A program made the position numbers and the translations under genes. From the NCBI RefSeq assembly GCF_018448905.1, contig NZ_RCWA01000038.1, forward strand, positions 1-42,732: a stretch of DNA of 42,732 bases, in the 5' to 3' direction. Positions 3,131 to 39,863 of the stretch are shown here, piece after piece. The DNA is from Photorhabdus heterorhabditis (lineage in GTDB: Bacteria > Pseudomonadota > Gammaproteobacteria > Enterobacterales > Enterobacteriaceae). The stretch's first letter is position 1. The number at the start of each line of letters is the position of its first letter. The notes beneath the pieces are model-generated. The model was not told the origin of the DNA. It did not search any database and worked only from the letters and a program-made list of their open reading frames with translations.

Positions 3131-3161
3131 TTGTTCTTACCGTGGCTAATACCCGTATATA

Positions 3162-3883: not shown

Positions 3884-3884
3884 T

Positions 3885-14922: not shown

Positions 14923-14928
14923 AAGCAA

Positions 14929-15581: not shown

Positions 15582-16430
15582 TCACTGAACCTCTCCGTCA
15601 CAACTGATTGTCAGTGCCATATTTAAAGCTCGAATTAAAACGACTTTATCCTCGCTATCTTCCAGCAAACTAAAATGGTTACCCGAAATAGGAATTAGCC
15701 GCAGCAAAGGAGCCGGTACTATCTGCGCCCAACCTAATGACGGCTCCATACTTAAAGGCCGTGGGTTGTCATCCGTAACCAAAGGAACGAGTGGAGAAGG
15801 TTCCATTGCATAGAACTGATGAAGAGTTACCGTTAATACTTGCGGTTCATAATCCCTGACGATTTGTGCATAATTTTCTATCTGTTCCCAACGCTTCGCG
15901 ATCAAATTAGGACTCAGATTTAACGGGTATAACGCCAGTTCCTGCGCCGCGGCAATAAATTGCACCAAACTCAGTTCGTCGATTCTTTGGTACAATGCGG
16001 CAATCTCTTCAATGTGTTCTTCCCCTAAGTGCCTTACCAATTCAATAAAGAACTGAAGCTTAGGCGGTATTATCTGTTTCCTGGAATAGTGAGGCGCAGG
16101 CGTATCAATTAGCCCCAGAAAATTGATCGTCTCACCGGCATTCAAAAGTTGCTGAGCAATGGCATAAGCCAATATACCGCCAGAAGAGTAACCACATATT
16201 CGGTACGGGCCTGCCGGTTGAATGGCCTTCATAAAGATGATCATTCTTGTCACCTGCTGCTCTATCGTTGACATGGGTCCTTCACTGATAGACGGCCAAG
16301 GCAGCGCGTAAATTGGATAGCCTGATTGAATATGCTGGGCCAGCCCAAAAACATAGGAATAATCACCCATCCCACTGGGAACAAAGAACAACGGTAACCC
16401 GATTCCGTCAGGTCGCACAGGTATGGCATG
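15582..16430 (-). other. NRPS terminal thioesterase domain
   Basis: Residues ~6520-6802, an alpha/beta hydrolase with nucleophile S6602 in GYSSGG, acid in GLIDTPAP and histidine in GNHFSLL. Releases the finished peptide from T6. With a formyl cap on residue 1, hydrolysis to a linear acid is the simplest outcome, since head-to-tail cyclisation is blocked. Confidence 0.9.
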
Positions 16431-19400
16431 ACTCCGTGGCTGAGACAGCCAATCTGAGGTCATTTTTGCTGCCAGTTCCATCAGAACCGGAAATTGAAAC
16501 AAATCATTCAATGTACATACCAAATCATAACCTGCGGCAAGGTTTACCATCCGCATGGCAAGTAATGAATGTCCTCCCAACGTAAAGAAGTTGTCATGTC
16601 GGCTAATCCGCTCAATACCCAATAACTCACGCCAGATAACCGCCAATGTGGTTTCTATTTCTCCCTGCGGAGCTTCATAAATCTGACGGGCAAAAGCCTC
16701 TTTACCCGGAGCAGGTAACGCCCGGCGATCTAACTTACCATTAGTGGTCAGCGGGAAGGCATCCAGACGCACAAAGGCTGTCGGCACCATGTAGTCAGGT
16801 AAAATTGTGCTCAGATAGGTACGCAGACTATTAACCAGCCCGTCCTCTGTGTCTGCCACCACATAAGCAACCAACCGCTTATCCTGTCCATCACTCAACG
16901 CCAGCACAGCCGCCTCACGCACCGCAAAATGCTCCGTTAACCGGGCTTCAATTTCTCCCGGTTCAACGCGGAAACCGCGAATTTTAACCTGCTGGTCATT
17001 CCGGCCAAGGAATTCCAAATTACCATCTGGCAGGTAGCGAGCCAGATCCCCGGTTCGGTACATACGCGCGTTCGGTACATCACTAAACGGATCTGTCAAA
17101 AAGCGTTCAGCGGTCAATTCCGGGCGATTGAGGTAACCACAAGCAACCCCATCACCGCCAACATAAATCTCACCAGCCACCCCTAACGGCACCGGCTGAC
17201 CATCATCATCCAGCAAGTAAACACGCGTATTGGCTATCGGTCGGCCAATGGAGACCCTTGTCGCCCCCGGTGGTAACGCGGCAATACGGTACATGGTAGT
17301 AAAGGTAGTTCCTTCACTCGGACCATAAGTCTGCAATAATCGTTGTGGCGGACTGTTGTCCAAAACCTCAGCAATCACATGCAGAGCGGGGATATCTCCC
17401 CCGAAAATCAGAATTTTTATCTGCGGAAGAACCGGTGACAACTCTACAACCAGCCGATTAAATAATCCGACAGTTAGCCACAGAATCGTGACTCGATGAT
17501 CCTGTAACACCCGTACCAACGCCTGCGGCGTTAACAAAGTGGCATGATCAATCACCACCAGCGCCCCACCGTTGAGCAAAGGCGCCCAGACTTCAAAGGT
17601 GCTGGCATCGAAAGCCGGGTTAGCGGTAAAGGACACCCGATCATCTTGCTTAATTTCCGCATAGCCATTGTTAATGACCAGCCGAACCACCGCGCGGTGA
17701 GGCACTACCACGCCTTTTGGTATACCGGTCGAGCCGGAGGTATACATGACATAAGCGGGGTCTGAACTGTGACCAGACCAATCAAGATTGAAACCTTCTT
17801 CTTCCCTGCTTGTGTCTGCCTGATCAGTAAGTCGAAATAACGGAACAGTAAGGCTAATCGGAATATCAACCCGCCCATCAGTAAGCAACAATTTGGCTGA
17901 ACAATCGTTTATCAACCAATTTTTCCGCTCATCCGGCGCTCCGGGATCAATAGGAACATAAACGGCACCTACTTTGAGAATCGCCAACTGTGCCACCACC
18001 AGTTCAATCGAACGCTCTAACAGCAGTGCAACATGGTCATTCGGGCAAATTCCCTGTGCAATCAATTGACGGGCTAGCCGGTTAGCTTGAGTATTCAGTT
18101 CGGCATAGCTAAGGGTTTTATCTCCTGCGATCAATGCCGTGGCTTCCGGGGTTTTCTCCACCTGTTGTTCAAATAATTGATGAATACACAACTGATCGGG
18201 ATAGATTGTTTCAGTGGCATTCCAGGTTCCCAGCAATAACGTGCGTTCAGCCTCCGGCAGGATATCTGGCATCTGCACCGATATTTCCGGGGTCTGTTCA
18301 AGTGCTCGCACCAAACTTTCCAGTGCTTGTTGCATATAACCGCATATACGTTTCGGATCAAACGGCTGAACAATTTGAGCCGTCAGCCCCAGTGCATCAC
18401 CAAAATCCTCCACCGACATGACAAACGGATAATTAGTACGCTCCTGTCCACCAAAGAGTTCAATACCACTTATCGTTTCATGCAAAGTTTGCAAAGAGGC
18501 ATTATGTCGATAATTCAACAGAGTATTAAAGAGTGGCGTTCCACCCGGCACACCACTACAACGCTGAGCTAACACCAGAGATGCATGCTCATGTTCCAGC
18601 AACTCAGCCAGCCGGGTATGTACTATCTGTACACTATCTCGTACTGGAGTATCATCTACATCCAGTCGTAATGGCAGGGTATTGATAAACAATCCCATTC
18701 CATTATCAACCCCTTCCCCCGCTTGCATACGCCCAAACAGGACAGTCCCGAACACCACCTGCTGTTGTCCGCTGGTACGCGACAACACCTGCGCCCAGGC
18801 AAGATGACACAAAGAAGCCAAACTCACACTCAAACGCCGGGCTTGACCCCGTAAGCGGTCATTAAGTTCAGCTGCCAGCATCTGGTGTGATTCTGTGACT
18901 TGCGAACCATCATGATGCACGTCTGTCAATCCGAATGGTAACGTCGGCTCATTGACTCCAGCCAACATGTCGGTAAAGAAGCGGGTATGCTCTTCCTGAC
19001 TTACCCCCAATCGTGCCTGAGCCACCAGATTGCGGAAGGGAACCGGAACAGGCAAATTGTCCCCTTGTCCGGCAAGATACGCCTGAACTTCACGGTTCAT
19101 CACCCCCAATGTTGTATGGTCACCAATCAGATGGTGCAGTAATTGCAGCACTATCCAGCGGCCATCCTGCTCCTGTGCCACCGCAAAGCGCAGCAATGGC
19201 GCCTGTTCCAAGCCAATACGATGTTGGCGTGTATCAAAACGTCGCATCAATTGATCACCAACCGGACCATCATCCGGGTGTAGGGTCAATTCAGTCACGG
19301 ATAAAGGTGCTTGACGCCAAACCACCTGAACTGGAACCGATACCCCTTGCCAGATAAAAGCGGTACGCAAAATATCGTGACGATCAACTACCTGTTGAAC

Positions 19401-22400
19401 CGCGGCCAGATAACGATCCAATAAAGGCCGGTCAGCAAAAGCCATTTGGCTGACCAGTAGATACGGATCACCTTTATTTGCCAGTAGATGATGGAACAAA
19501 ATACCATCCTGCAACGGTGACAAAGCATAGATATCCTGAATATTGGTCATCCCGCCCGGCACTTGCCCGATGATACGGTCAATTTCCGCCTGAGTCAGAT
19601 CAATCAGTGGCAACATCTCTGGTGTCAATGTAGTCGCTGCCGGTGTCATAACATTAGGCGGTACCACCACAACCCGGTACTGTCCCAGCGTTTGGGCAAG
19701 TTCAGACAACACCGGAAATTGGAACAAGTCACGCACGGCCAGCGTCAATCTAAGAGTACGCAAGCGCTCAACCATCCGCACAGCAAGCAACGAATGTCCC
19801 CCCAGCGCAAAGAAACTATCATGCCGACTGATCTGTTCAATTCCCAGCAATTCGCGCCAGATAGCCGCCAGTGTAGTTTCTGTCTCCCCCTGCGGGGCGG
19901 CATAAACCTGATGAGCAAAATCTTCCTCTGCCGGAACCGGCAGCGCCCGGCGATCCAGTTTGCCGTTAGGCGTCAGCGGAAAGGCATCCAGACACACAAA
20001 AGCCGCCGGCACCATATAGTCAGGCAAAATTATGCTCAAGTGGCGACGCAAGTTATTAACTAACCCGTCATCCGCTTGCGCCACCACATAGGCAATCAAC
20101 CGTTTGTCTTGCCCGTCACCAGCAACTAACACGAGTGCTTCACGTACCGCAGAGTGCTCCATCAACCGAGCTTCTATTTCCCCCGGCTCAATACGGAAGC
20201 CCCTAATTTTAACCTGCTGATCATTACGGCCAACAAACACCAGATTGCCATCCGGCAAGTAACGCGCCAAATCTCCGGTTCGGTACATGCGCGCATTCGG
20301 GTCATTGCTAAATGGGTCCGTGAGAAAACGTTCAGTGGTCAGTTCTGGTTGGTTCAAATAGCCACGTGCTACACCAATACCGCCAATATACAGCTCACCT
20401 ACCGCCCCCAGCGGCACCGGCTGACCGTCGGTACCCAGTAAATAAACACGTGTGTTGGCCGTCGGGCGACCCATCGGCACCCATTCATCGGTATAGTCTA
20501 GCGGGCAAGACCAGACAGTCGCACAAACAGTAATTTCCGTCGGGCCATAAGCATTGAACAGATTCACCCGACCACTCAGAGCCTGAAGCAGTGCTGCACT
20601 GGGTGCTTCACCACCCAATATTAATGTCGGTCTTATCGTCATCACCGGCAAACCCGCCCCCTCCCGGAGCATAGCTGGTGTCAAACAGGCATGTGTCACC
20701 GCCTGCTCTTCTAGGTAATGCCAAAGGTGATGTGGCTCCTGACGAACCATGTCGGCAGGAATATCTAAAGTGGCACCACCACATAGCGCCATCATGACTT
20801 CCCAAACACTGGCATCGAAACCAAACGAGGCGAACTGCAACATTCGGCTGCCTGAATGAACATCAAACTGAACAATTTTTTCCTGAATAAGATTAACTAA
20901 CCCACGATGTTCAATCATCACCCCTTTCGGTGTGCCGGTTGAGCCAGAGGTATAAATCACATAGGCCAGATGACGGGAAGTCAATGAAGACACCAAGGGA
21001 TTGCTGTCCGGTTGGTCAGGCAATGAATTCGGATCAAATAGAGTTAATCCGGCTAACGCTTTCTCGCCTAACGCATCACATCCAGCACTATCCGCCAGCA
21101 AAATCGCTGGCGCGGCATCGGTCAGAATATGTATTAAACGCTCACCCGGATAAGCCGGGTCCAGAGGTACATAGGCTCCGCCAGCTTTTAGTATTGCCAA
21201 CAGCCCTATGACCATTGCAGGTGAGCGTGTTACGCAAATCGCTACTCGCTGATCCGGTACCACACCCAATGTAATAAGCTGGTGGGCCAGCCGGTTAGCA
21301 CAGGTATTTAATTCGGCATAACTTAAACGCTGACCTTCATGCACCAACGCAATAGCATCAGGATGCTTTTCAACTTGTTGTTCAAATAACCGATGAATAC
21401 ACCATTGGTCAGGATACCAGGCATTTGTGGCATTCCAAGTTTCCAGTAATAGCCTGCGTTCCGCTGACGCCAAAATATCGATTTTTCCAACCAACTGCTG
21501 AGGATTAGCGGCCATCTCTTGCAGTATCGTATACAAATAACCTGTATGTCGTTCAATTGTCTGCCGATCAAACAATGCGGTGGCATAATTCAGATAACCC
21601 ACAATCCTGCCATCCACCTCAGACAGATTCAGCTCAAGATCAAACTTAACCACATCAAAAGCGTGATCAACGGGTGAGATGGTCAACCCCGGTAGCCTCA
21701 ATTCCATATTCTCATTGTTCTGCCAGGCAAACATCACTTGAAACAACGGGGTATGCGCCAATCGGCGCGGTGGCTGCACAATTTCTACCACCTGTTCAAA
21801 TGGCAAATCCTGGTGTTCCTGTGCCGCCAGCGCGGTTTGCCGCACACGCGTAAGTAACTCGGTAATGTTCAGCGAACCTGATAAATCAATACGTAAAGCT
21901 AACGTATTGACAAAGAAACCGATCAGCGATTCCACCTCTTGGAGACTACGGCCCGCACTCGGCGTACCGATAACCAGATCTTCTTGACCTGACAAGCGCG
22001 ACAGGACTATAGCCCAGGCTGACAACAGGGTCATAAATAGAGTGACACCCTGCCGTTCACTCAAATGTTTAAGGGATTTCGTTAACTCTGCATCCAAATT
22101 AACAGGCAATACATGTCCGACAAACGACTGGTGAGATGGACGTAGCCGATCAGTTGGCAAATCTAATAGGACCGGCGAGTCAGCTAGCGCAGCACGCCAA
22201 TAATCAGATTGGATTTGGACTCGTTCAGCTGAAAGCCATTGACGTTGCCACGCGGCATAATCAGGGTATTGAATCGCCAACGGTGGCAACGGATCGGGCT
22301 GCTCTAGCAAGAAAGCCGAATAGAGGGCATTCAGCTCACGCATTAACACGCTAACAGACCAGCCGTCTGAAATAATGTGATGCTGGGTCAACAAGAATAC

Positions 22401-25400
22401 ATAATCATTGTCAGCCCGTTGTATCAGACAGGCACGGATCAACGGGCCACGGGTCAAATCGAATGACGTCTCAGCTTCCTGTATACACAAATGTTCAAGT
22501 TGTTGATCCACATCAGGCACTTTACGCAGATCGTATTTTTTCATTGGCAAGCCAAATTCCACTGACAACAGTTTAACTTGAGGCTGACCATCAACAGAGA
22601 TGAATACAGAACGTAACGCTTCATGACGAGCAAACAGGCGATTAAGCACCTGCTGCCAGACAGCAATATCAAGCGGCCCCTGCAAACGCAGTGCTATGGG
22701 AATATGATAGGTATCACTGACTCCCTTAAATTGAGCTAGGAACCACAAGCGTTGTTGCGCGAATGACAGCGGCAACTCACCCTCACGAGATATTGGCATA
22801 ATGGCGGGTAGTTTACTGCCTTGTTCTGTCAGTCGCTTACTCATCACCTCAGCAAAGGCGGCTAAAGAAGGGGATTTAAACAACATGGTCAGCGGCAATT
22901 CGATACCTAAAGCGGCTATTCGATTGATCATCCGCACAGCCAATAGTGAATGACCGCCCAGTGCGAAAAAGTTGTCATGGCGGCTAATCTGTTCAACCCC
23001 CAATAACTTGCGCCAAATAGCGGCCAAAGTAGTTTCCATCTCTCCTTGCGGCGCTGCATAAACCTGACGAGCAAACGCTTCTTCTCCCGGCGCGGGTAAT
23101 GCCCGACGGTTCAGTTTACCGCCAGATGTCAGTGGAAATGTATCCAAACGCACAAAAGCCACCGGCATCATATAATCAGGCAAAATCATACTCAGATGGG
23201 TACGCAAACTATTAACTAATCCGTCATCCGCGTCTGCCACCACATAGGCAACCAGCCGCTTCTCCTGTCCGTCATCGAGAGCTAACACCGCGGCTTCACG
23301 CACCGCAAAATGTTCCGTTAACCGGGCTTCGATTTCCCCCGGTTCAACGCGGAAACCGCGAATTTTAACCTGTTGGTCATTACGGCCAAGGAATTCCAAA
23401 TTACCGTCCGGCAGGTAGCGAGCCAGATCCCCGGTTCGATACATCCGCCCATTCTGTTCATCACTAAAGGGATCTGTTAGAAAACGCTCAGCCGTCAATT
23501 CCGGGCGATTGAGATAACCGCAGGCCACCCCATCTCCGCCAACATAAATCTCACCAACCACCCCCAACGGCACCGGCTGACCATAATCATCCAGCAAGTA
23601 AACACGCGTATTGGCTATCGGTCGGCCAATAGGCACTCTCATCGTTCCTTGTGGTAACGCGGCAATACGGTACATGGTGGTAAAAGTGGTTCCTTCACTC
23701 GGACCGTAAGCCTGCAATAATTGTTGCGGCGGGCTGTTGTCCAAAACCTTAGCAATCACATGCAGATCGGGGATATCTCCGCCGAAAATCAGGACTTTTA
23801 TCTGCGGGAGAACCGAGGATAATTCTACTACCAGCCGGTTAAATAACCCGATAGTCAGCCACAGAATCGTAACTCGATGAACCTGTAACACCCGTACAAA
23901 CTCCTGCGGCGTCAGCAAAGTGGCATAGTCAATTACCACCAGCGCCCCACCATTAAGCAAAGGCGCCCAGACTTCAAAGGTACTGGCATCAAAAGCCGGG
24001 TTAGCGGTGAAAGCAACCTTGTCATCCGGCCTGATTGCAACATAGCCGTTATTAATAACCAATCTGACCACCGCACGATGAGGCACCACCACGCCTTTTG
24101 GTGTACCGGTCGAGCCGGAGGTATACATGACATAAGCTGAATCTGAACTATGACAAGGTAAATCAAGATTGGCGCGATCTTCCGCTCTGATTGTTCCCAT
24201 CTCACTGGAAAGACAGAACAGAGGAACTGCAAAATTAGTCGGAATATCAAATGGTAAATCAGTGATCAGTAACCGTGCTGAACAATCGTTTATCAACCTG
24301 TTTTTCCGCTCGTCCGGTACGCTGGGATCTATCGGCACGTATACAGCATCGACCTTGAGAATAGCCAGCTGGGCCACCACCAGTTCAATCGAACGCTCTA
24401 ACAGGATTACAACGCGATCACCCGGACAAATCCCTTGTGCTACCAATTGACGGGCCAGCCGGTTAGCACTGGCATTCAGCTCTGCATAACACAGCGCCTT
24501 ATCTCCTGCTATCAACGCGACGGCATCCGGGGTTTTATCCACCTGTTGTTCAAATAACTGATGGATACACAACTGGTCAGGATAAGCGACTTCCGTCGTA
24601 TTCCAGATTTTCAGCAGTAAATTCCTCTCTGCTTCCGGCAAGATTTCCAGCGCCCGAACGGGTTTTTCCGGGGTCTGTTCAAGCGCCTGTACCAGACTTT
24701 CCAGTGCTTGTTGCATATAGCCGCATACGCGTTCCGGATCAAACGGCTGGACGATTTGCGCTGTCAGTCCCAACGCATCACCAAAATCCTCCACCGACAG
24801 CACAAATGGATAGTTGGTCCGCTCCTGCGCACCAAGGAACTCAACACCGTTTATCATTTCATTCGAAGCTGCTAACGGCGCATTATGCCGATAGTTCAAC
24901 AGAGTACTAAAGAGCGGGGTTCCACCCTGCACACCACTGCAACGCTGAGCCAATGCCAGCGAGGCGTGTTCATGCTCTAACAGCCCTGCCAACCGGGTAT
25001 GTACCGCCTGTATGCTGTCCCGCACCGGGGTATCATCGATATCCAATCGTAGCGGCAAGGTATTAATAAACAGTCCCATGCCACTGTCAGCGCCTTCGCC
25101 CGCCTGCATACGCCCAAATAGCACCGTGCCGAACACCACTTTCTTCTGGCCGCTGGTACGAGACAACACTTGCGCCCAAGCCAGATGGCACAATGTGGCT
25201 AAACTTACCCCCAGACGCCGAGCCTGATCACGTAAACGGTCATTCAAGTCAGTCGTCAGCATCCGATGCGATTGTGTTACCTGTGAACCACCATGGTGTA
25301 CCTCTATCAACCCAAACGGCAACGTCGGTTCCTCCACCTCCGCTAACATGTCGGTAAAGAAACAAGTATGCTCAACCTGATTGACACCCAATTGAACCTG

Positions 25401-28400: not shown

Positions 28401-31400
28401 CGTAGCCCAGGCTGACAGCAAGGTCATGAACAATGTGCCCCCCTGCTGCTCGCTCAAACGCTTCAAGGATTGGGTTAATTCGGCATCCAGATTGACAGGC
28501 AATAAATTCCCCGCAAATGATTGCTGGACAGGACGTGGTCGGTCAGTTGGCAAATCCAACAATACCGGCACATCAGCCAATATCGTGCGCCAATAGTCAG
28601 ATTGGTTCTGAATACGCTCAGCCGAAAGCCACTGACGCTGCCAGGCGGCGTAATCAGGGTACTGAATCGGTAATGCAGGCAATGGATCAGGTTGCCCGGT
28701 CAGAAAAGCCGTATAGAGAGTACTTAATTCACGCATCAGTATGCTGACAGACCAGCCATCGAAAACAATATGATGCAGGGTCAACAGGAATAGGTAATCA
28801 TCGTTAGCCAGTTGTATCAAAGCAGAGCGGATTAACGGCCCACGAGCGAGATTAAACAGTGTTTCAGACTCCTGCATGCGCAGATATTTAAGTTGTTTCT
28901 CCACATCAGGTACTTTACGCAGATCGTATTTTTTCATCGGCAGGCCAAATTCCGTCGGCAACAGTTCGATCTGGGGATGACCATCAACTGTCACAAATAT
29001 GGAACGTAAAGCCTCATGACGAGCAAATAGGTGATTAAGTGCGCGCTGCCAGGCAGCGATATCGAACTGACCACGCAAACTCAATGCTACCGGGATATGA
29101 TAGGTATTACTGACCTCGTCAAATTGGGCGAGGAACCACAAACGCTGTTGCGCAAATGACAGAGGTAACTCGCTATCGCGGGATATCGGCATGATTGCGG
29201 GTAATATGCTATCTGGTTCACCAAACTGAACACTCATCTTCTCGGCAAAAGCTGACAATGAAGGAAATTCAAATAACGTGCTCAACGGCAGTTTGATGCC
29301 TAAAGCGGCTATCCGGTTCATCATCCGAACAGCCAATAGTGAATGACCACCCAGTGCGAAAAAGTTGTCATGCCGACTTATCTGTCCAATTCCCAGCAAT
29401 TCATGCCAGATAGTCGCCAAAGCAATCTCAGTTTCCCCTTGCGGCGCTTCATAGATCTGACGGGCAAAATCCTCTTCCCCCGGAGCCGGTAGCGCCCGGA
29501 GATCCCGTTTGTCGTTAGGTGTGAGCGGAAAGGCATCCAGACGCACGAAAGCCGCTGGCACCATATAGTCAGGTAAAATTGTACTTAAATGCTCACGCAG
29601 ACCAACCACTAACCCGTCATCTGGCTCGGCCACCACATAAGCAACCAGCCGTTTATCTTGTCCATCACTTACCGCTAATACCAATGCTTCACTCACCGCC
29701 GGATGCTCGGTCAAACGCGCTTCGATTTCTCCCGGTTCAATCCGAAAACCCCGGATTTTAACCTGTTGGTCATTACGACCAACAAACACCAGATTGCCAT
29801 CCGGCAGGTAGCGGGCCAAATCCCCGGTTCGATACATGCGTGCATTCGGTACATCACTAAATGGATCTGTCAGAAAGCGTTCAGCGGTCAATTCCGGGCG
29901 ATTAAAGTAACCACAGGCAACCCCATTGCCGCCAACATAAATCTCACCGGTCGCACCTAGTGGCACCGGTTGCCTATACGCGTCTAACAGATAGAGGCGC
30001 GTGTTAGCAATTGGCCGGCCAATAGGGATCTTTGCTACTCCCGGCGGTAACGCCGTAATGGGATATATCGTGGTAAAGGTGGTGCCTTCACTTGGGCCAT
30101 AAGCTTGTAATAATTGTTGCGGCGGATTCTTGTCCAAAACCTGAGCGATCACATGCGGATCGAGGACCTCTCCGCCGAAAATCAAAATCTTGATCTGAGC
30201 AAGCACCGGAGACAACTCCGCCACCAACCGGTGAAGCAAGCCAACACTCATCCACAGAATAGTGATTCGATAAGCCTGTAAAGCTCGTACAAAATCCGAT
30301 GGCGTCAGTAAAGTAGCATGGTCGATAACCACCAATGTTCCACCGTTGAGCAACGGCGCCCAAACTTCAAATGTGCTGGCATCAAAAGCGGGATTCGCGG
30401 TAAAGGCAACCCGATCATCCTGTCCGATTTCCGCATAGCCATTATTCATCACCAGTCGGACCACAGCACGATGAGGCACTACCACCCCTTTTGGTGTACC
30501 GGTCGAACCGGAGGTATACATAATATACGCTGACTTGGCGCTGAAACCGGGTAAGTCAAGATTGCAACGCTCCTCTTCCCTGTCCGTAATGGGATCGCTG
30601 GAGAGATGAAATAACGGCACAGCAAGACCAGTTGGGATATCAGCCTGCTCATCAGTGAGCAGCAATTTGGCTGAACAATCGTTTATCAGCCAATTTTTCC
30701 GCTTATCCGGCATTCTGGGATCGACGGGAACATAAACGGCACCAACTTTGAGAATAGCCAGTTGTACCACCACCAGCTCAACAGAGCGTTCTAATAAGAT
30801 CGCCACATGGTCATCTGGTAAGATGCCCTGTTCAATCAGTTGACGAGCCAGTCGATTCGCACAAACATTCAGTTCCACGTAACTGAAAGTCTTATCTCCT
30901 GCTATCAGCGCTATGGCCTCTGGGGTTTTCTCCACCTGCTGTTCAAACAACTGATGAATGCATAGCTGGTCAGGATACGGCGCCTCGGTGGCGTTCCAGA
31001 TTTTCAGCAACAGCTGTTGCTCTGCTTCTGGCAAGATGTTCAATCTGCGTACCGGTGTTTCTGGCGCCTGTTCAAGCACTTCCACCAGGCTTTCTAATGC
31101 CTGTTGCATATAACCACATACCCGTTCTGGATCAAACGGCTGCACCACTTGGGCGATCAACCCCAAAGTGGAACCACCGTCCTCTACCGACAGCACAAAC
31201 GGATAGTTAGTACGTTCTTCTTCGCTAAGGAATTCAATACCCGGCACAACCTTATCCGGCGTCATCGGCTGATCGTTATGCAGATAGTTCAATAAGGAAC
31301 TAAAAAGTGGCATTTCGCCCTGTACACCACTGCAACGCTGAGCCAGCGCTAACGATGCATGTTCATGATCCAACAATGCTGCTAATCGGGTATGTGCGGC

Positions 31401-34400
31401 CTGTACGCTGTCCCGTACCGAAGTGTCATCAATATCCAACCGCAACGGCAAGGTATTGATAAACAGCCCCATCCCGCTATCAGCCCCATCACCCGCCTGC
31501 ATACGCCCAAACAATACCGTGCCAAACACCACCTGTTGCTGCCCGCTGGTACGCGACAATACCTGCGCCCAAGCCAAATGACACAAAGCAGCCAGACTAA
31601 CGCCCAGACGCCTCGCCTGATTGCGCAAGCGGTCATTCAGCGTGGCTGTCAGCATTCGGTGCAATTGGGTGACTTGTGAACCATCACGATGGACCTCCAC
31701 CAATCCAAACGGTAACGTCGGTTCATCTACCTCAGCCAGCATGTCAGTAAAGAAGCGGATATGCTCTTCCTGACTTACCCCCAATCGGGCTTGAGCCACT
31801 AAATTGCGGAAAGGTACCGGTGCAGGCAGACTACCCTCCTGCCCGGAAAAATACGCCTGAACTTCGTGGTTCATGATTTCCATCGTGGTATGGTCGCCAG
31901 TCAAATGATGCTGCAATTGCAATACTATCCAGCGACCATCCGTTTCCTGTGTCACTATAAAGCACAACAACGGTGCCTGGCCCAAATCGAGGTGATGCTG
32001 ACGTAAGTCAAAACGCTGGGTTAACTGGTCAATAATTGGGCCATCAGCGGGATTCAGCATCAACTCAGTCACTGACAAAGGTGCCTGACGCCAAACAACC
32101 TGAGCCGGAACTGACAATCCTTCCCAGAGAAAAGCCGTACGTAAAATATCGTGACGATCAACCACCTGTTGAACCACTGCCAGATAACGGTCCAACAAAG
32201 GCCGATCATTGAAGGCCATCATATAGGCCAACAGATACGGGTCACCTTCATTTGTGAGTAAATGGTGGAACAAAATACCGTCCTGTAGCGGCGACAGAGC
32301 ATAGATATCCTGAATATTGGCGATCCCTCCCGGCACCTGTCCGACGATACGGTCAATATCAAGCTGAGTTAGATCAATCAGTGGCAGCATCTCCGGCGTC
32401 AATACTGTCGTTGCCGATGTAATCACATTAGGCGGTACCACTACTATAGCCTGATGCTGCCCCAACATATGAGCAAGCTCAGACAATACTGGATATCGGA
32501 ATAAATCGCGGGCAACCAACGTTAACCCAAGGTTACGCAGACGCTCAATCATCCGTAAGGCAAAGAGAGAATGACCACCCAACGCAAAAAAGTTGTCATG
32601 TCGGCTAATCTGCTCAATACCCAACAATTCACGCCAGATAGTCGCCAACGTGGCTTCTATTTCCCCCTGCGGTGCTGCATAAATCTGACGAGCAAAAGCC
32701 TCCTCACCCGGAGCAGGCAACGCCCGGCGATCTAACTTACCATTAGGAGTCAGCGGGAAGGCATCCAGACGCACAAAAGCCGCTGGCACCATGTAGTCAG
32801 GTAAAATTGTACTCAGGTAGGTATGCAGATTATTAACCAACTCCTCATCCGCGTCTGCCACCACGTAGGCAACTAACCGCTTATCCTGCCTATCATCCTG
32901 AACCAGCACAACAGCCTCACGTATCGCAGAATATTCCGTTAGTCGAGCTTCGATTTCTCCCGGTTCAATGCGGAAACCCCGAATTTTAACCTGCTGGTCA
33001 TTACGGCCAAGGAATTCCAAATTACCGTCCGACAAATAGCGCGCTAAATCCCCGGTTCGATACATACGCGCATTCGTCTTATGACTAAATGGATCGACCA
33101 GAAAGCGCTCAGCGGTCAATTCCGGGCGATTGAGATAACCGCTGGCCACCCCATCACCGCCAATATAAATCTCACCGATACCCCCCAACGGCACTGGCTG
33201 ACCATAATCATCCAGCAAGTAAACACGCGTATTGGCTATCGGTCGGCCAATGGGAACCTTCGCCATCCCCGGAGGTAACAACGCGATACGATACATCGTG
33301 GTAAACGTCGTTCCTTCCGTCGGGCCATAGGCTTGCAATAACTGTTGAGGCGAATTTTTGTCCAAAACCTTAGCAATTACATGCCGATCGGGAATATCCC
33401 CCCCGAAAATCAGCATTTTTATCTGTGGAAGCACCGAGGACAACTCAGCTACCAATCGGTTAAATAACCCAATCGTTAACCACAAAATCGTGATGTGATG
33501 AGCTTGTAACTCCTGTATAAACGCTTGCGGCGTCAGCAACGTGGCATGATCAATCACCACCAACGCTCCACCATTAAGCAAAGGCGCCCAGATTTCAAAG
33601 GTACTGGCATCGAAAGCCGGGTTAGCGGTGAAAGCAACCCGGTCATCCTGCCCGATTTCTGCATAGCCATTATCAATAACCAGCCGAATTACCGCATGAT
33701 GAGGTACGATGACTCCTTTGGGTGTACCCGTCGAACCAGAGGTATACATGACATAAGCAGCGTCTGAACTGCGACAAGGTAAATCAAGATTGAAATCCGT
33801 CTCATCTTCCCCGGACGCATCTACCTCCGCAGAAATACACAATAACGGAACAATCAGGCCAATCGGGATATCAGACTGTACATCAGTGATGAGTAACCGA
33901 GCTGAGCAATCGTTTATCAACCTGTTTTTCCGCTCGTCCGGCACACTAGGATCGATAGGAACATAAACGGCCCCCGCTTTGAGGATAGCCAACTGTGCTA
34001 CCACCAGTTCAATCGAACGCTCTAACAGGATTACAATGTGATCACCCGGGCTAATCCCCAGAGCAATCAATTGACGAGCCAGTCGGTTAACACCCGCATT
34101 GAGTTCAGCATAGCTAAGGGTCTTATCTCCTGCTATCAATGCGGTGGCCGCCGGAGTTTTCTCCACCTGTTGTTCGAATAGCTGATGAATACACAGCTGG
34201 TCAGGATAGATTGTTTCAGTGGCGTTCCAGGTTTCCAACAGTAGTGTGCGTTCGGACTCAGGTAATAAATTAAGCTGCCAAACTGGTATTTCATCACCTA
34301 CTTTTTCCGCTGATGCCAACACCTGTAAATGTTCACTCATCCGCTGAACATCTTCTACGAGCAAACGAGTTGCATCGTAGATCCAGCGAAAACCACCCTG

Positions 34401-35990
34401 TGCATTAATCTGCAATGTCAGAAGTTCACCTGACACATCCTTCTCCCACTGTCTGTCATCCTTTATGACCGAGACAGCAATCCGCCATGGCTGGCAGGCT
34501 GTTAACGCTGGAATAACACTTAATGCAGGAGAACGGGAAAGAAGGTCACAACAAAATGTACGGTGTTGCGCTAAGCATGTAAGTTCGTTACTAATCCAGT
34601 CAGCGACTACACTCCACGGCTTATCAAATGCTACCTCAATCGCCATGGGAACCACTGGTGACAAACCAGCCAATAAACCCAGTTCATCTTTTGCTTCATC
34701 CACATACCAACCGATTTGGAACTTGGTCTGATGAGTCAAACGCGCCAGATAAATGGCGAATGTCTGCAACAACATCGGCAATGGATCTGTTTCACTGTTT
34801 TTCGGCAACGGAGGTTGCCAGACACTCATTGCCCATCTGGGTTCTACCTGCTCCCCGGCAATTTCGAAAGGTAATTGGAATGGCTGCCAAGAGGCAAGAC
34901 GCTCACACCAGAATGATTCACTGGGTGCCAATGACTGGAGAGTATTTTTTACATTCTGTGCTTGTTGTGGAGAAAGCAAAGGTAATGATTTACCCGGACT
35001 GAGTTCTGATATAGCAGCCAGTTCACCAGTAGATAATAATTTGCCTTCAAGAGTGGTAAACCCACCAATCCGCACATCTCCACTGCCCGTCGTGACTTGC
35101 CAGGCGTTCTCTTCTACATCAATCAACGTACCTGGTGCCGCCTGAGAACAACAGTTCAACCGTTCAAGCCAAGAAATTCGCACGGTGCCCTGCTTAAGCA
35201 ACACTTTCGGACAGCCCAGTGGATTTAGATAATTCTCGCCAAAATCTAAAGCCCGTACCAACGCTGACAATACTTCACCCGGCTGCTCCCAACACAGATA
35301 TCCCCCACCATCAGGCCGATGTGACTGAGCATAAAAACTCCGTTGCGAGAGATCTTGTGGATGGGTCACCAACGTGCCCTGACCAAGATCCTGCAACAAT
35401 TTAATAAATCCTTCCTGAGCAGCCTGATAACATTTTAGATTCAATGAAAATGCACTATCGTGTTCCCCAATAGATACCGGCCATTGCACAGCAATATCGC
35501 AGGCATCCACACCCGCTTCAATGCAATGCCAGGAAATAGCATAATGTGCCTCCTGCGCTAACAACGCCCAAGAAGTGGCATGACAACCCGCATAGCGGGG
35601 TAAGGGGCTATCGTGATAGTTAAAAGCGCCGCCGCGAATCTGTTCAATCAACGACATAGGCAGAATGATCGGACTAGCGATTGAGAAAAGCCAATCGACA
35701 GGGTGTAGCATGATTTGCTGTTGTAATGCGTCAACAGAGTCCACACAAACGATTCCTTGCTGGACAGCCCAGGTTTGCAAAACATCATCATCAGTTAGCA
35801 CCGCTTGTATTGTATGCCCAGCCGATTGAATTTGCTCGGCACAGAATACTGCAAGAGTTGTTCCTCCCACCACGACACAGATACGTGATGAAGTAGGAAT
35901 ATTATTTACGTTATTGATTATATTTTCTGACGTCTGAGAGGGGAGTGCTACTTTAAGGACATTTCCCGCGTTAGCAATGCTATCTTTCAT
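15582..35990 (-). CDS. Hexamodular NRPS with N-terminal formyltransferase
   Basis: A 6802-residue synthetase starting at ATG 35990 with GAGG six bases upstream. Domain order: formyltransferase, half condensation domain, then A1-T1, C/E-A2-T2, C-A3-T3, C/E-A4-T4, C-A5-T5, C/E-A6-T6, thioesterase. All six carrier serines are present in GGHSL (S1141, S2217, S3273, S4348, S5400, S6475). The C domains before modules 2, 4 and 6 carry the extended HHLL-x4-GD motif of dual C/E domains, so residues 1, 3 and 5 should be D. The nonribosomal codes of A1-A4 and A6 read near DAFWIGxTF, a valine-type code; A5 reads DAWCIGAVC, probably aromatic. The inferred product is an N-formylated D,L-alternating hydrophobic hexapeptide, made in the cytoplasm. 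No MbtH, phosphopantetheinyl transferase or exporter gene lies nearby. Length and identity differ from the 15-module kolossin synthetase I know from this genus. Confidence 0.95.
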   Translation of the reverse strand: MKDSIANAGNVLKVALPSQTSENIINNVNNIPTSSRICVVVGGTTLAVFCAEQIQSAGHTIQAVLTDDDVLQTWAVQQGIVCVDSVDALQQQIMLHPVDWLFSIASPIILPMSLIEQIRGGAFNYHDSPLPRYAGCHATSWALLAQEAHYAISWHCIEAGVDACDIAVQWPVSIGEHDSAFSLNLKCYQAAQEGFIKLLQDLGQGTLVTHPQDLSQRSFYAQSHRPDGGGYLCWEQPGEVLSALVRALDFGENYLNPLGCPKVLLKQGTVRISWLERLNCCSQAAPGTLIDVEENAWQVTTGSGDVRIGGFTTLEGKLLSTGELAAISELSPGKSLPLLSPQQAQNVKNTLQSLAPSESFWCERLASWQPFQLPFEIAGEQVEPRWAMSVWQPPLPKNSETDPLPMLLQTFAIYLARLTHQTKFQIGWYVDEAKDELGLLAGLSPVVPMAIEVAFDKPWSVVADWISNELTCLAQHRTFCCDLLSRSPALSVIPALTACQPWRIAVSVIKDDRQWEKDVSGELLTLQINAQGGFRWIYDATRLLVEDVQRMSEHLQVLASAEKVGDEIPVWQLNLLPESERTLLLETWNATETIYPDQLCIHQLFEQQVEKTPAATALIAGDKTLSYAELNAGVNRLARQLIALGISPGDHIVILLERSIELVVAQLAILKAGAVYVPIDPSVPDERKNRLINDCSARLLITDVQSDIPIGLIVPLLCISAEVDASGEDETDFNLDLPCRSSDAAYVMYTSGSTGTPKGVIVPHHAVIRLVIDNGYAEIGQDDRVAFTANPAFDASTFEIWAPLLNGGALVVIDHATLLTPQAFIQELQAHHITILWLTIGLFNRLVAELSSVLPQIKMLIFGGDIPDRHVIAKVLDKNSPQQLLQAYGPTEGTTFTTMYRIALLPPGMAKVPIGRPIANTRVYLLDDYGQPVPLGGIGEIYIGGDGVASGYLNRPELTAERFLVDPFSHKTNARMYRTGDLARYLSDGNLEFLGRNDQQVKIRGFRIEPGEIEARLTEYSAIREAVVLVQDDRQDKRLVAYVVADADEELVNNLHTYLSTILPDYMVPAAFVRLDAFPLTPNGKLDRRALPAPGEEAFARQIYAAPQGEIEATLATIWRELLGIEQISRHDNFFALGGHSLFALRMIERLRNLGLTLVARDLFRYPVLSELAHMLGQHQAIVVVPPNVITSATTVLTPEMLPLIDLTQLDIDRIVGQVPGGIANIQDIYALSPLQDGILFHHLLTNEGDPYLLAYMMAFNDRPLLDRYLAVVQQVVDRHDILRTAFLWEGLSVPAQVVWRQAPLSVTELMLNPADGPIIDQLTQRFDLRQHHLDLGQAPLLCFIVTQETDGRWIVLQLQHHLTGDHTTMEIMNHEVQAYFSGQEGSLPAPVPFRNLVAQARLGVSQEEHIRFFTDMLAEVDEPTLPFGLVEVHRDGSQVTQLHRMLTATLNDRLRNQARRLGVSLAALCHLAWAQVLSRTSGQQQVVFGTVLFGRMQAGDGADSGMGLFINTLPLRLDIDDTSVRDSVQAAHTRLAALLDHEHASLALAQRCSGVQGEMPLFSSLLNYLHNDQPMTPDKVVPGIEFLSEEERTNYPFVLSVEDGGSTLGLIAQVVQPFDPERVCGYMQQALESLVEVLEQAPETPVRRLNILPEAEQQLLLKIWNATEAPYPDQLCIHQLFEQQVEKTPEAIALIAGDKTFSYVELNVCANRLARQLIEQGILPDDHVAILLERSVELVVVQLAILKVGAVYVPVDPRMPDKRKNWLINDCSAKLLLTDEQADIPTGLAVPLFHLSSDPITDREEERCNLDLPGFSAKSAYIMYTSGSTGTPKGVVVPHRAVVRLVMNNGYAEIGQDDRVAFTANPAFDASTFEVWAPLLNGGTLVVIDHATLLTPSDFVRALQAYRITILWMSVGLLHRLVAELSPVLAQIKILIFGGEVLDPHVIAQVLDKNPPQQLLQAYGPSEGTTFTTIYPITALPPGVAKIPIGRPIANTRLYLLDAYRQPVPLGATGEIYVGGNGVACGYFNRPELTAERFLTDPFSDVPNARMYRTGDLARYLPDGNLVFVGRNDQQVKIRGFRIEPGEIEARLTEHPAVSEALVLAVSDGQDKRLVAYVVAEPDDGLVVGLREHLSTILPDYMVPAAFVRLDAFPLTPNDKRDLRALPAPGEEDFARQIYEAPQGETEIALATIWHELLGIGQISRHDNFFALGGHSLLAVRMMNRIAALGIKLPLSTLFEFPSLSAFAEKMSVQFGEPDSILPAIMPISRDSELPLSFAQQRLWFLAQFDEVSNTYHIPVALSLRGQFDIAAWQRALNHLFARHEALRSIFVTVDGHPQIELLPTEFGLPMKKYDLRKVPDVEKQLKYLRMQESETLFNLARGPLIRSALIQLANDDYLFLLTLHHIVFDGWSVSILMRELSTLYTAFLTGQPDPLPALPIQYPDYAAWQRQWLSAERIQNQSDYWRTILADVPVLLDLPTDRPRPVQQSFAGNLLPVNLDAELTQSLKRLSEQQGGTLFMTLLSAWATVLSRLSGQEDLVIGTPSAGRSRQEVESLIGFFVNTLALRIDLSGAPNVVELLARVRQTALAAQEHQDLPFEQVVEIVQPPRRLAHTPLFQVMFAWQNNENPDWKLPGLAVSPAEQCLDTAKFDLELNLSEKDDKIVGYLSYATALFDQQTIERHLGYLYTVLQEMVTNPQQSVGEIDILTSAERRLLLEIWNATKAPYPDQLCIHQLFEQQAEKTPVATALIAGDKILSYAELNAYANRLAHRLIELRVCPDDHVAIMLERSVELVVAQLAILKAGAVYVPIDPSVPDERKNGLINDCSAKLLLTDLQFDIPIDLAVPLFRLSSEMDTIREKACFNLNVPCLSSDSAYVMYTSGSTGTPKGVVVPHRAVIRLVINNGYAAIGLDDKVAFTANPAFDASTFEVWAPLLNGGTLVVIDRATLLTPQEFVQALQAHQITILWLTIGLFNRLVARLSPILPQIKVLIFGGDIPDPHVIAGVLDNSPPQQLLQAYGPSEGTTFTTMYRIATLPLRTVRVPIGRPIANTRVYLLNGYGQPVPLGVIGEIYVGGDGVACGYLNRPELTAERFLTDPFSDQPNARMYRTGDLARFLPDGNLEFLGRNDQQVKIRGFRIEPGEIEARLMAYPVVREAAVLALGDGQDKRLVAYVVADANDELVNNLRTYLSAILPEYMVPAAFVCLDAFPLTSNGKLDRQALPAPGEDAFAHQVYEAPQGDTEVALAAIWRDLLGVEQISRHDSFFTLGGHSLLAVQMVERLRNLGLTLAVRDLFKSPVLSELAQTLAQYQAVVVPPNIITSVTEALTPEMLPLIALTQSEIDYIVEQVPGGISNIQDIYALSPLQDGILFHHLLANEGDPYLLASQMVFADRPLLDRYLAAVQQVVDRHDILRTAFIWQGLSVPAQVVCRQVQLPVAERVLNLADGPICEQLAQLFDPRQHRIDLSQAPLLRFVMAQETDGRWVVLQLLHHLIGDHTTMEVMNREVQAYLTGQQNRLPVPVPFRHLIAQVQLGVNQVEHTCFFTDMLAEVEEPTLPFGLIEVHHGGSQVTQSHRMLTTDLNDRLRDQARRLGVSLATLCHLAWAQVLSRTSGQKKVVFGTVLFGRMQAGEGADSGMGLFINTLPLRLDIDDTPVRDSIQAVHTRLAGLLEHEHASLALAQRCSGVQGGTPLFSTLLNYRHNAPLAASNEMINGVEFLGAQERTNYPFVLSVEDFGDALGLTAQIVQPFDPERVCGYMQQALESLVQALEQTPEKPVRALEILPEAERNLLLKIWNTTEVAYPDQLCIHQLFEQQVDKTPDAVALIAGDKALCYAELNASANRLARQLVAQGICPGDRVVILLERSIELVVAQLAILKVDAVYVPIDPSVPDERKNRLINDCSARLLITDLPFDIPTNFAVPLFCLSSEMGTIRAEDRANLDLPCHSSDSAYVMYTSGSTGTPKGVVVPHRAVVRLVINNGYVAIRPDDKVAFTANPAFDASTFEVWAPLLNGGALVVIDYATLLTPQEFVRVLQVHRVTILWLTIGLFNRLVVELSSVLPQIKVLIFGGDIPDLHVIAKVLDNSPPQQLLQAYGPSEGTTFTTMYRIAALPQGTMRVPIGRPIANTRVYLLDDYGQPVPLGVVGEIYVGGDGVACGYLNRPELTAERFLTDPFSDEQNGRMYRTGDLARYLPDGNLEFLGRNDQQVKIRGFRVEPGEIEARLTEHFAVREAAVLALDDGQEKRLVAYVVADADDGLVNSLRTHLSMILPDYMMPVAFVRLDTFPLTSGGKLNRRALPAPGEEAFARQVYAAPQGEMETTLAAIWRKLLGVEQISRHDNFFALGGHSLLAVRMINRIAALGIELPLTMLFKSPSLAAFAEVMSKRLTEQGSKLPAIMPISREGELPLSFAQQRLWFLAQFKGVSDTYHIPIALRLQGPLDIAVWQQVLNRLFARHEALRSVFISVDGQPQVKLLSVEFGLPMKKYDLRKVPDVDQQLEHLCIQEAETSFDLTRGPLIRACLIQRADNDYVFLLTQHHIISDGWSVSVLMRELNALYSAFLLEQPDPLPPLAIQYPDYAAWQRQWLSAERVQIQSDYWRAALADSPVLLDLPTDRLRPSHQSFVGHVLPVNLDAELTKSLKHLSERQGVTLFMTLLSAWAIVLSRLSGQEDLVIGTPSAGRSLQEVESLIGFFVNTLALRIDLSGSLNITELLTRVRQTALAAQEHQDLPFEQVVEIVQPPRRLAHTPLFQVMFAWQNNENMELRLPGLTISPVDHAFDVVKFDLELNLSEVDGRIVGYLNYATALFDRQTIERHTGYLYTILQEMAANPQQLVGKIDILASAERRLLLETWNATNAWYPDQWCIHRLFEQQVEKHPDAIALVHEGQRLSYAELNTCANRLAHQLITLGVVPDQRVAICVTRSPAMVIGLLAILKAGGAYVPLDPAYPGERLIHILTDAAPAILLADSAGCDALGEKALAGLTLFDPNSLPDQPDSNPLVSSLTSRHLAYVIYTSGSTGTPKGVMIEHRGLVNLIQEKIVQFDVHSGSRMLQFASFGFDASVWEVMMALCGGATLDIPADMVRQEPHHLWHYLEEQAVTHACLTPAMLREGAGLPVMTIRPTLILGGEAPSAALLQALSGRVNLFNAYGPTEITVCATVWSCPLDYTDEWVPMGRPTANTRVYLLGTDGQPVPLGAVGELYIGGIGVARGYLNQPELTTERFLTDPFSNDPNARMYRTGDLARYLPDGNLVFVGRNDQQVKIRGFRIEPGEIEARLMEHSAVREALVLVAGDGQDKRLIAYVVAQADDGLVNNLRRHLSIILPDYMVPAAFVCLDAFPLTPNGKLDRRALPVPAEEDFAHQVYAAPQGETETTLAAIWRELLGIEQISRHDSFFALGGHSLLAVRMVERLRTLRLTLAVRDLFQFPVLSELAQTLGQYRVVVVPPNVMTPAATTLTPEMLPLIDLTQAEIDRIIGQVPGGMTNIQDIYALSPLQDGILFHHLLANKGDPYLLVSQMAFADRPLLDRYLAAVQQVVDRHDILRTAFIWQGVSVPVQVVWRQAPLSVTELTLHPDDGPVGDQLMRRFDTRQHRIGLEQAPLLRFAVAQEQDGRWIVLQLLHHLIGDHTTLGVMNREVQAYLAGQGDNLPVPVPFRNLVAQARLGVSQEEHTRFFTDMLAGVNEPTLPFGLTDVHHDGSQVTESHQMLAAELNDRLRGQARRLSVSLASLCHLAWAQVLSRTSGQQQVVFGTVLFGRMQAGEGVDNGMGLFINTLPLRLDVDDTPVRDSVQIVHTRLAELLEHEHASLVLAQRCSGVPGGTPLFNTLLNYRHNASLQTLHETISGIELFGGQERTNYPFVMSVEDFGDALGLTAQIVQPFDPKRICGYMQQALESLVRALEQTPEISVQMPDILPEAERTLLLGTWNATETIYPDQLCIHQLFEQQVEKTPEATALIAGDKTLSYAELNTQANRLARQLIAQGICPNDHVALLLERSIELVVAQLAILKVGAVYVPIDPGAPDERKNWLINDCSAKLLLTDGRVDIPISLTVPLFRLTDQADTSREEEGFNLDWSGHSSDPAYVMYTSGSTGIPKGVVVPHRAVVRLVINNGYAEIKQDDRVSFTANPAFDASTFEVWAPLLNGGALVVIDHATLLTPQALVRVLQDHRVTILWLTVGLFNRLVVELSPVLPQIKILIFGGDIPALHVIAEVLDNSPPQRLLQTYGPSEGTTFTTMYRIAALPPGATRVSIGRPIANTRVYLLDDDGQPVPLGVAGEIYVGGDGVACGYLNRPELTAERFLTDPFSDVPNARMYRTGDLARYLPDGNLEFLGRNDQQVKIRGFRVEPGEIEARLTEHFAVREAAVLALSDGQDKRLVAYVVADTEDGLVNSLRTYLSTILPDYMVPTAFVRLDAFPLTTNGKLDRRALPAPGKEAFARQIYEAPQGEIETTLAVIWRELLGIERISRHDNFFTLGGHSLLAMRMVNLAAGYDLVCTLNDLFQFPVLMELAAKMTSDWLSQPRSHAIPVRPDGIGLPLFFVPSGMGDYSYVFGLAQHIQSGYPIYALPWPSISEGPMSTIEQQVTRMIIFMKAIQPAGPYRICGYSSGGILAYAIAQQLLNAGETINFLGLIDTPAPHYSRKQIIPPKLQFFIELVRHLGEEHIEEIAALYQRIDELSLVQFIAAAQELALYPLNLSPNLIAKRWEQIENYAQIVRDYEPQVLTVTLHQFYAMEPSPLVPLVTDDNPRPLSMEPSLGWAQIVPAPLLRLIPISGNHFSLLEDSEDKVVLIRALNMALTISCDGEVQ
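16480..19640 (-). other. NRPS module 6: dual C/E - A6 - T6
   Basis: C/E signature FHHLLANKGD and HHLIGDHTT; A6 signature residues D-A-F-W-I-G-T-T-F (valine-type), carrier S6475. Accepts the pentapeptide and epimerises residue 5 before condensation, by analogy with dual C/E domains. Confidence 0.85.
19690..22800 (-). other. NRPS module 5: C - A5 - T5, divergent A domain
   Basis: Ordinary condensation domain (HHIISDGWS). The A5 core differs from the other five from about residue 4870 to 5200 (AYVPLDPAYPGERL, FGFDASVWEVMMAL, HACLTPAML, FNAYGPTEITVCATVW). Signature D-A-W-C-I-G-A-V-C, nearest to phenylalanine codes. Carrier S5400. Confidence 0.85.
22860..26030 (-). other. NRPS module 4: dual C/E - A4 - T4
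   Basis: C/E signature FHHLLANEGD and HHLIGDHTT; A4 valine-type signature (FDASTFEVW, ILWLTIG, LIFGGD, AYGPSEGTTF); carrier S4348. Residue 3 should become D here. Confidence 0.85.
26085..29215 (-). other. NRPS module 3: C - A3 - T3
   Basis: Ordinary condensation domain with HHIVFDGWS; A3 valine-type signature; carrier S3273. The C domain should join a D-configured donor residue only if module 2 were epimerised, but the preceding C/E acts on residue 1, so this C is expected to take an L donor. Confidence 0.85.
29230..32400 (-). other. NRPS module 2: dual C/E - A2 - T2, altered A10 motif
   Basis: C/E signature FHHLLTNEGD and HHLTGDHTT; A2 valine-type signature; carrier S2217. The A10 motif reads PLTPNDKRDLRALP where the other modules have NGKLDRRALP or close to it. 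The catalytic Lys is kept but its Gly and Asp-Arg neighbours are changed. Confidence 0.85.
32460..34234 (-). other. NRPS initiation A1 - T1
   Basis: Adenylation domain (YTSGSTGTPKGV, FDASTFEIW, AYGPTEGTTF, MYRTGDLARYL, NGKLDRRALP) with valine-type signature and carrier S1141. The aminoacyl-T1 is the expected substrate of the N-terminal formyltransferase. Confidence 0.85.
34235..34980 (-). other. Truncated condensation-like domain between formyltransferase and A1
   Basis: About 240 residues (ESFWCERLASW ... GGFRWIYDATRLLVEDV) that resemble the C-terminal half of a condensation domain but have no HHxxxDG motif. A half C domain cannot condense; it may be a structural linker or the relic of an ancestral upstream module. 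Confidence 0.65.
35025..35890 (-). other. N-terminal formyltransferase domain of the NRPS
   Basis: Residues ~34-322, fold of methionyl-tRNA formyltransferase. Readable catalytic set: N124 and H126 in FNYHDSPLPRYAG, D165 in GVDACDIAVQW. As in LgrA of linear gramicidin, it should formylate the first aminoacyl group on T1 using a formyl-tetrahydrofolate donor. Confidence 0.85.
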
Positions 35991-36857
35991 TTACAACCTC
36001 AACAATTCTGTTAGATATTTGAAAACTGTCTTTCCCGACAGTCATCAAAGTGCTTTCTTTTACTTTTCCCCGTTTTATCTTTGGAGGAATAAAGACGGAC
36101 TTGCCAAGCATCAATCAAGATACTCAGACAATACTTTCTCTCTGGCATTGAGTGTAAATAATCGCTTGATTAACCATGCTGTGGTGATAATTCACCTAAC
36201 AATGGAATAAATGATTCATTCTATGAACCGTAAACAAGCACTCTGTTTCGTCCCTGTTTTTTATATCAATGTCTATGATGAGTTGGCGTTTAATTCCATG
36301 ACTTAAAAAGGATTTATAGACGACTAATTGGTATGAGTTGACTTCGATCACGCTCCAAAAATAAAGATTATCATTCTAATAATGAACAAAAAACCCCTGC
36401 CAAAGCAACTTATTAAACATTTACAAATACATCTTGTATATTTAATTACTCAAAGATATAAGTTTAGGTTAGAATCAATTTCACCACATGTTATTTAATA
36501 ATAAAATCCTATGATTAATGTGAAAGTTAATTACATTTAACTTCGTAAAGAAATAATTTCAAATTAAAATCAACCTTATTATATATTATTTAGTATAATA
36601 TAGCTAAGATCACCATTAATGCAATACCGTATTGATTATCAGGCAACATATTCTAAGAGAGTTATTCTTTGATATGATTTATCGGATGGTGCAAACAGGA
36701 TTCAAGCTTTATACCGTTTAGTTTGCTAATACTCGTCTGCATATACAATAAAATTACCCTCCACTACAATCAATACTAAAGTATAAGTTGTTCTTTCCTC
36801 CCAAGATTCACCACAGCTTCAGAATCGTTGTTTAAAAATTGAAAATATTATCGTATA
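35991..36857. other. AT-rich region upstream of the NRPS, no gene seen
   Basis: About 870 bases without a credible ORF. It should hold the NRPS promoter; none can be named with confidence. Confidence 0.6.
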
Positions 36858-38994: not shown

Positions 38995-38996
38995 TT

Positions 38997-39821: not shown

Positions 39822-39833
39822 CTAACAGCGGAG

Positions 39834-39861: not shown

Positions 39862-39863
39862 TG

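Follow-up and report, generated by a model that had tools for sequence, protein, structure and literature searches.

The window analysed here, a stretch of 42,732 nucleotides of Photorhabdus heterorhabditis DNA, carries a giant non-ribosomal peptide synthetase (NRPS) gene that we consider, with a probability of roughly 0.77, to be an ortholog of PhpS, the synthetase of the photohexapeptides, with the linear peptide formyl-D-Val-L-Val-D-Val-L-Val-D-Leu-L-Val and its Val/Leu variants as product. The computed mass M of this likely main product is 654.4316 ([M+H]+ 655.4389). The gene and its product class are most probably not new and are ordinary for Photorhabdus, and the window adds one species to the photohexapeptide/kolossin group. 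In ordinary culture the gene probably stays silent.

The synthetase is encoded by a single uninterrupted ORF with an ATG start, and the earlier sighting of a giant NRPS gene is confirmed as genuine. Pfam recovered Formyl_trans_N (4e-12), Formyl_trans_C (2.5e-4), AMP-binding, AMP-binding_C, PP-binding and Condensation in the N-terminal 1730 aa and Thioesterase (1.1e-21) in the C-terminal 540 aa. A motif scan of the whole protein found six adenylation (A) domains with YTSGSTG, six carrier (T) domains with LGGHS, five condensation (C) domains and the GYSSG motif of a thioesterase (TE) near the C-terminus (Table 1), which bears out the description in the earlier note of a formyltransferase (F) start and six modules in one 20.4-kb gene. 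The A-to-T spacing of 383–388 aa is too short for a methyltransferase insert, and the gap of ~105 aa between T motif and dual C/E motif is too short for a separate epimerisation (E) domain. A chance pattern is ruled out since the 6800-aa architecture was found again in two other species.

Table 1. Features of the synthetase gene and its leader in the window (limits of A and C domains are approximate).
Feature	Positions	Strand	Basis
NRPS with six modules in a single gene (6802 aa), probable phpS ortholog	15582..35990	-	ORF, motif scan, ortholog comparison
F (formyltransferase) domain, residues ~36-335	34986..35885	-	Pfam; structure-hit alignments
~240-aa linker, possible C-domain stub, where starter C would sit	34251..34973	-	phmmer
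A1, DAFWIGATFK (Val, possibly Leu)	32709..34181	-	code reading
T1, LGGHS	32475..32687	-	motif
C2, dual C/E (residue 1 predicted D)	31080..32402	-	motifs, tree
A2, DAFWIGATFK (Val)	29481..30953	-	code reading
T2, LGGHS	29247..29459	-	motif
C3, ordinary C, HHIVFDG	27852..29174	-	motifs, tree
A3, DAFWIGATFK (Val)	26313..27785	-	code reading
T3, LGGHS	26079..26291	-	motif
C4, dual C/E (residue 3 predicted D)	24684..26006	-	motifs, tree
A4, DAFWIGATFK (Val)	23088..24560	-	code reading
T4, LGGHS	22854..23066	-	motif
C5, ordinary C, HHIISDG	21459..22781	-	motifs, tree
A5, DAWCIGAVCK (Leu in Photorhabdus, Phe possible)	19917..21389	-	code reading, GameXPeptide calibration
T5, LGGHS	19698..19910	-	motif
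C6, dual C/E (residue 5 predicted D)	18303..19625	-	motifs, tree
A6, DAFWIGTTFK (Val)	16707..18179	-	code reading
T6, LGGHS	16473..16685	-	motif
Type I thioesterase, GYSSG	15606..16403	-	Pfam, alignment
A+T-rich leader upstream of start codon, ~690 bases	36001..36687	-	alignment with orthologs and kolossin locus

The stereochemistry of the peptide can be predicted from its C domains. C2, C4 and C6 carry HH[IL]xxxxGD plus HHL[TI]GDH, as dual C/E domains do, and C3 and C5 carry the HHxxxDG of ordinary C domains. Eight synthetases supplied 46 C domains for a tree, in which a single branch with 100/100 support separated the 29 domains with dual motifs from the 17 others. Motifs and tree thus both support the strict alternation of dual C/E and ordinary C domains put forward in the earlier note, and the dual domains stand apart in the tree instead of classing as ordinary. 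The window peptide should have the configuration D-L-D-L-D-L, with D at residues 1, 3 and 5. The same rule was applied to the presumed GameXPeptide synthetase (GxpS) of genome G007 (5216 aa), whose dual domains C2, C4 and C5 predict D at residues 1, 3 and 4. GXP-A is cyclo[D-Leu/L-Leu/D-Val/L-Leu/D-Phe] (PMC10764021); following the modules, its residues are D-Val, L-Leu, D-Phe, D-Leu and L-Leu, and the dual C/E rule fits 5/5 configurations. This agreement is not fully independent, since the GameXPeptide gene was chosen between two five-module frames of that genome (5457 and 5216 aa) by the position expected for it and by its codes.

In the proposed assembly, A1 would load Val onto T1, where the F domain would formylate it with 10-formyltetrahydrofolate as donor. 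Each dual C/E domain would epimerise its donor residue and then condense, leaving D residues at the odd positions, and the ordinary C domains would join residues without epimerisation. The thioesterase would hydrolyse the finished chain to give a linear peptide, and Val/Leu exchanges would yield a small peptide library. A linear product is expected because the formyl cap bars head-to-tail closure and the side chains of Val and Leu offer no nucleophile; cyclic release was rejected on the same chemistry. The TE of the window gene resembles those of linear-product (kolossin) and cyclic-product (GxpS, szentiamide) synthetases alike, so that its sequence is not decisive on this point. Of the whole scheme, the order of domains and the motifs are read directly from the sequence, and the residues, formylation, stereochemistry, linear release and the tie to PhpS are inferred.

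Among solved structures, the F domain matches ArnA, Met-tRNA formyltransferase (1fmt) and LgrA, the alignments examined being those to ArnA and 1fmt; it resembles LgrA only moderately, with E from 2e-10 to 3e-9 and the match lying mostly in residues 79-212. N124, H126 and D162 fall in the formyltransferase triad columns, with N-x-H and D present, and we take these residues to act as the triad. It is present in 17 of the 18 loaders of one alignment and 18 of the 19 of another. The losses, in the second gene of G007 (L020, D162 to N) and in X. vietnamensis (L039, N124 to H and D162 to N), suggest that these two start modules no longer formylate. Beside the catalytic Asp, the window reads GVDACD vs GVDTGD in most relatives, the Cys being common to P. 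australis. The F-A1 linker is possibly a C-domain stub: against 14 C domains, residues 340-580 gave a best phmmer E of 4.6e-5, in the last 50 aa, and the weak likeness to ordinary C domains is greatest towards the C-terminus of those domains. An active C domain at this place was rejected, the stretch having no Pfam Condensation match at 1e-3 and weak similarity to C domains. Linker-like stretches, 62–71% identical, occur elsewhere in Photorhabdus, and in two five-module frames (L066 and L068) such a stretch is N-terminal without an F domain, with the A1 motif near residue 434.

Full-length loaders of at least 65% identity were found as 19 copies in 11 of 13 Photorhabdus genomes, the window's own included; G010 and G012 gave none at this threshold. 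A scan of named genomes, which may leave out the window's own, returned 25 loader loci (17 in Photorhabdus, two in Xenorhabdus, five in Sinorhizobium/Ensifer and one in Mycetohabitans), and the two nearest lie in the reference genomes of P. australis and P. asymbiotica. A second formyl loader of the window's own genome (L019/L065 on G000:C86, 73%) breaks off where its contig ends. Across Photorhabdus, assembly lines that differ in module count and codes thus start from one conserved loader, F plus C-like stub. Such a fixed starter with varied downstream modules may be read as a natural record of module shuffling.

Two orthologs are full-length, with six modules and 6800 aa: that of P. australis DSM 17609 is 93.5% identical to the window gene, that of P. 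asymbiotica DSM 15149 85.1%. The P. tasmaniensis T327 copy (78.0%), truncated at a contig end, agrees with the window gene in its C alternation and in the Leu code of A5, and its A1-A4 codes are of Val type. Fourteen of the 19 full-length loader genes were examined, the window's included, the remaining five (G011:C33, G004:C12, G005:C43, G004:C38 and G000:C86) having frames that run to contig ends; the complete six-module form occurs in 3 of the 14 (window, P. australis and P. asymbiotica), and among the other kin are genes with 15 A domains (kolossin type) and with 11 (G008:C6). Both flanks of the window gene recur in P. asymbiotica: the MARTX-like gene on the downstream side (87.8% identical in DNA) and, upstream, sequence of haemagglutinin type. 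Pairwise identities among the five Val-type A domains of the window gene run from 75.5 to 84.0%, and A5 is 51.4–56.4% identical to them. For every A domain of the window gene the nearest one in P. australis is that of the same module (88–97%), and in P. asymbiotica this is so for A1, A2, A5 and A6, not for A3 and A4. In the C-domain tree, window C3 is likewise nearer to P. asymbiotica C5 than to P. asymbiotica C3. Since A3, A4 and C3 are not closest to their own P. asymbiotica counterparts, exchange between repeated modules is suggested.

Photohexapeptides are linear D/L-peptides obtained by activation of the silent phpS of P. asymbiotica PB68.1 (Zhao and Bode, 2019, according to the 2022 review PMC9002308, which groups them with kolossin and gramicidin A). 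The passage of that review on these peptides names no residues and no formyl group, and the main text of the Nat Chem survey of Photorhabdus and Xenorhabdus contains none of the words 'kolossin', 'hexapeptide' and 'formyl' (PMC9177418). What a PhpS-type synthetase would be expected to have, a single gene with six modules and a C-domain order giving D/L alternation, is present in the window gene, the six modules of PhpS being deduced from its hexapeptide product. The window gene is most likely the PhpS ortholog because no frame other than its 6800-aa counterpart has six AMP-binding matches in the reference genomes of P. asymbiotica DSM 15149 (58 matches) and P. australis DSM 17609 (46). This identification proceeds by elimination in two strains other than PB68.1 and from one review passage, the phpS of PB68.1 being taken from its description. 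The earlier note knew of no described product matching the gene; this statement falls, provided that phpS of PB68.1 is the window ortholog, as the photohexapeptides are already in print (PMC9002308). The note had also named a close described synthetase with a known product as evidence against its reading, and under the same proviso phpS with the photohexapeptides would be such a case. The photohexapeptides might instead come from another gene, possibly from multi-gene clusters that may add up to six modules, leaving the window gene as a kolossin-type synthetase of a formyl-started D/L hexapeptide still undescribed. The review passage without residues or formyl group would agree with this, as would the tally in another 2022 review, which counts anabaenopeptilides, linear gramicidin and kolossin A as the only three peptides known to be formylated by an F domain (PMC8949500); that tally omits the photohexapeptides and also omits the formylated szentiamide. 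Against it, neither reference genome has another six-A-domain frame, and the two loaders nearest to the window's in the scan of named genomes are theirs, PB68.1 being called P. asymbiotica (PMC9002308). We regard this alternative as unlikely, if the least so of those weighed here. Less likely still is a product of the window gene outside the photohexapeptides, a D/L hexapeptide with a formyl cap and valine at almost every position. If true, the product could be the shortest natural gramicidin-like D,L peptide, and the code change in A6 could give the strain its own variant. A decayed or inactive copy, as might be argued from the shortness of some frames with kin loaders (G006:C2, 727 aa; G008:C1, 2031 aa) and from the reported silence of phpS (PMC9002308), is very improbable given that the 6802-aa frame is intact, that the F triad, all six LGGHS motifs, the His motifs of the C domains and GYSSG are present, and that 6800-aa frames are maintained in two other species.

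The PhpS reading includes Leu as residue 5, which has to be weighed against Phe. Codes were read at positions placed by motif, without a solved reference structure. The earlier note gave five A domains the same Val-type code; the type holds for A1-A4 and A6, but A6 departs at one code position, its DAFWIGTTFK standing against DAFWIGATFK in the P. australis and P. asymbiotica orthologs, a strain-specific alteration of the binding pocket. The A1 of GxpS takes Val and Leu, and its A3 takes Phe and Leu (PMC9315016); among the 22 nearest neighbours listed for window A1, GxpS A1 is absent. The codes of the presumed GameXPeptide synthetase of G007 (DAFWIGATFK, DAWCIGAVCK, DAWCIAAVCK, DAWCIGAVCK and DAWCIGAVCK) agree with the residues of GXP-A, DAWCIGAVCK standing at all three Leu modules and DAWCIAAVCK at the Phe module. 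Since these Leu modules have exactly the code of A5, from which that of the Phe module departs at one position, A5 is likely best read as Leu, and the aromatic module of the earlier note was dropped as the main reading after this calibration. The identity of A5 to the three GxpS Leu domains (77.4–77.7%) also exceeds that to the Phe domain (74.5%), if by a small gap. DAWCIAAVCK is likewise the module-3 code of the X. szentirmaii synthetase, where szentiamide presumably carries Phe; the motif pattern missed one of the six A domains there, and the last two of the five codes read are those of modules 5 and 6. A product with mainly D-Phe at residue 5, formyl-D-Val-L-Val-D-Val-L-Val-D-Phe-L-Val ([M+H]+ 689.423), would be in keeping with a 2025 survey that places DAWCIGAVCK in its Leu/Ile/Val section and has it also accommodate Phe (PMC12283262). 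In view of the GameXPeptide and X. szentirmaii codes we consider it improbable, more so than a product outside the photohexapeptides, and Phe possible as a minor residue at this position. The Leu/Phe calibration by one code residue (G vs A) may aid the reading of other Photorhabdus codes.

P. australis, P. asymbiotica and P. tasmaniensis all have the leader before the start codon, and so does the kolossin locus, to which these 687 bases are 70.7% identical; starter and leader of the two loci may accordingly have a common origin. It could be a shared promoter or a long 5' leader. Rfam at gathering score found no known RNA element in the window, the leader included, and between 35900 and 38500 promoter-like sites (11 vs a mean of 12.7) and terminator-like sites (2 vs 1.2) were near chance level. 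Further upstream, a repeat of ~130 bases (36853-36985), which we take to be ERIC-like, has many copies at ~84–92% in P. asymbiotica, P. australis and the kolossin flanks. At 38452-42730 lie a haemagglutinin-repeat protein with a pre-toxin VENN domain, open at the window edge, a frame without Pfam match and an Imm42 immunity gene, together a putative contact-dependent-inhibition-like locus. On the other side, an intact 3439-aa frame on the minus strand (4609-14928, TTG start) has RtxA repeats, a C80 peptidase and a weak C58 peptidase match and would be a MARTX-like gene; P. asymbiotica, P. tasmaniensis and P. australis each have a gene resembling it in the neighbourhood of the ortholog. In positions 1-4200, several short frames on the plus strand carry WIDPLG or WIDPWG close to their start, presumably as at the tips of Rhs-type proteins, and a DUF1963 frame lies there too.

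Compared with known systems, the window gene is closest to PhpS and its photohexapeptides, with which it would share a linear D/L-hexapeptide product, a single silent NRPS gene and the nearest named species group (PMC9002308). The likeness of design to linear gramicidin and kolossin proposed in the earlier note finds support in the formyl loader and the predicted D/L alternation, and the comparison with kolossin and GameXPeptide that it advised was run. Kolossin A is among the peptides N-formylated by an F domain (PMC8949500), and its gene plu2670 measures 49.1 kb (PMC9002308), which the 16,367-aa frame of G007 with 15 A domains fits. The window gene and this synthetase have in common the F-stub-A-T loader (75% identical), the upstream leader, a similar TE, near-strict D/L alternation and Val- and Leu-type codes, but the kolossin synthetase has 15 modules instead of six, additional codes and consecutive dual C/E domains at C8 and C9. 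X. szentirmaii DSM 16338 makes szentiamide, which has six residues and a formylated N-terminus (PMC3343279); its synthetase resembles the window gene in the F loader (66%), six T domains and, as predicted for the window, a six-residue N-formyl product, and differs in its cyclic depsipeptide product, its codes and a C pattern of dual/ordinary/dual/dual/ordinary. GxpS shares DAFWIGATFK at A1, DAWCIGAVCK (at its A2, A4 and A5), a homologous TE and the dual C/E rule, but has five modules, no F domain and a cyclic product, as opposed to six modules and an F domain in the window gene. With the linear gramicidin synthetase (LgrA) the window gene shares F-A-T initiation and a D/L alternating design. 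The gramicidin system has no C-like stub, consists of several proteins and makes a peptide of 15 residues with separate E domains, which are absent from the window gene, where dual C/E domains stand instead.
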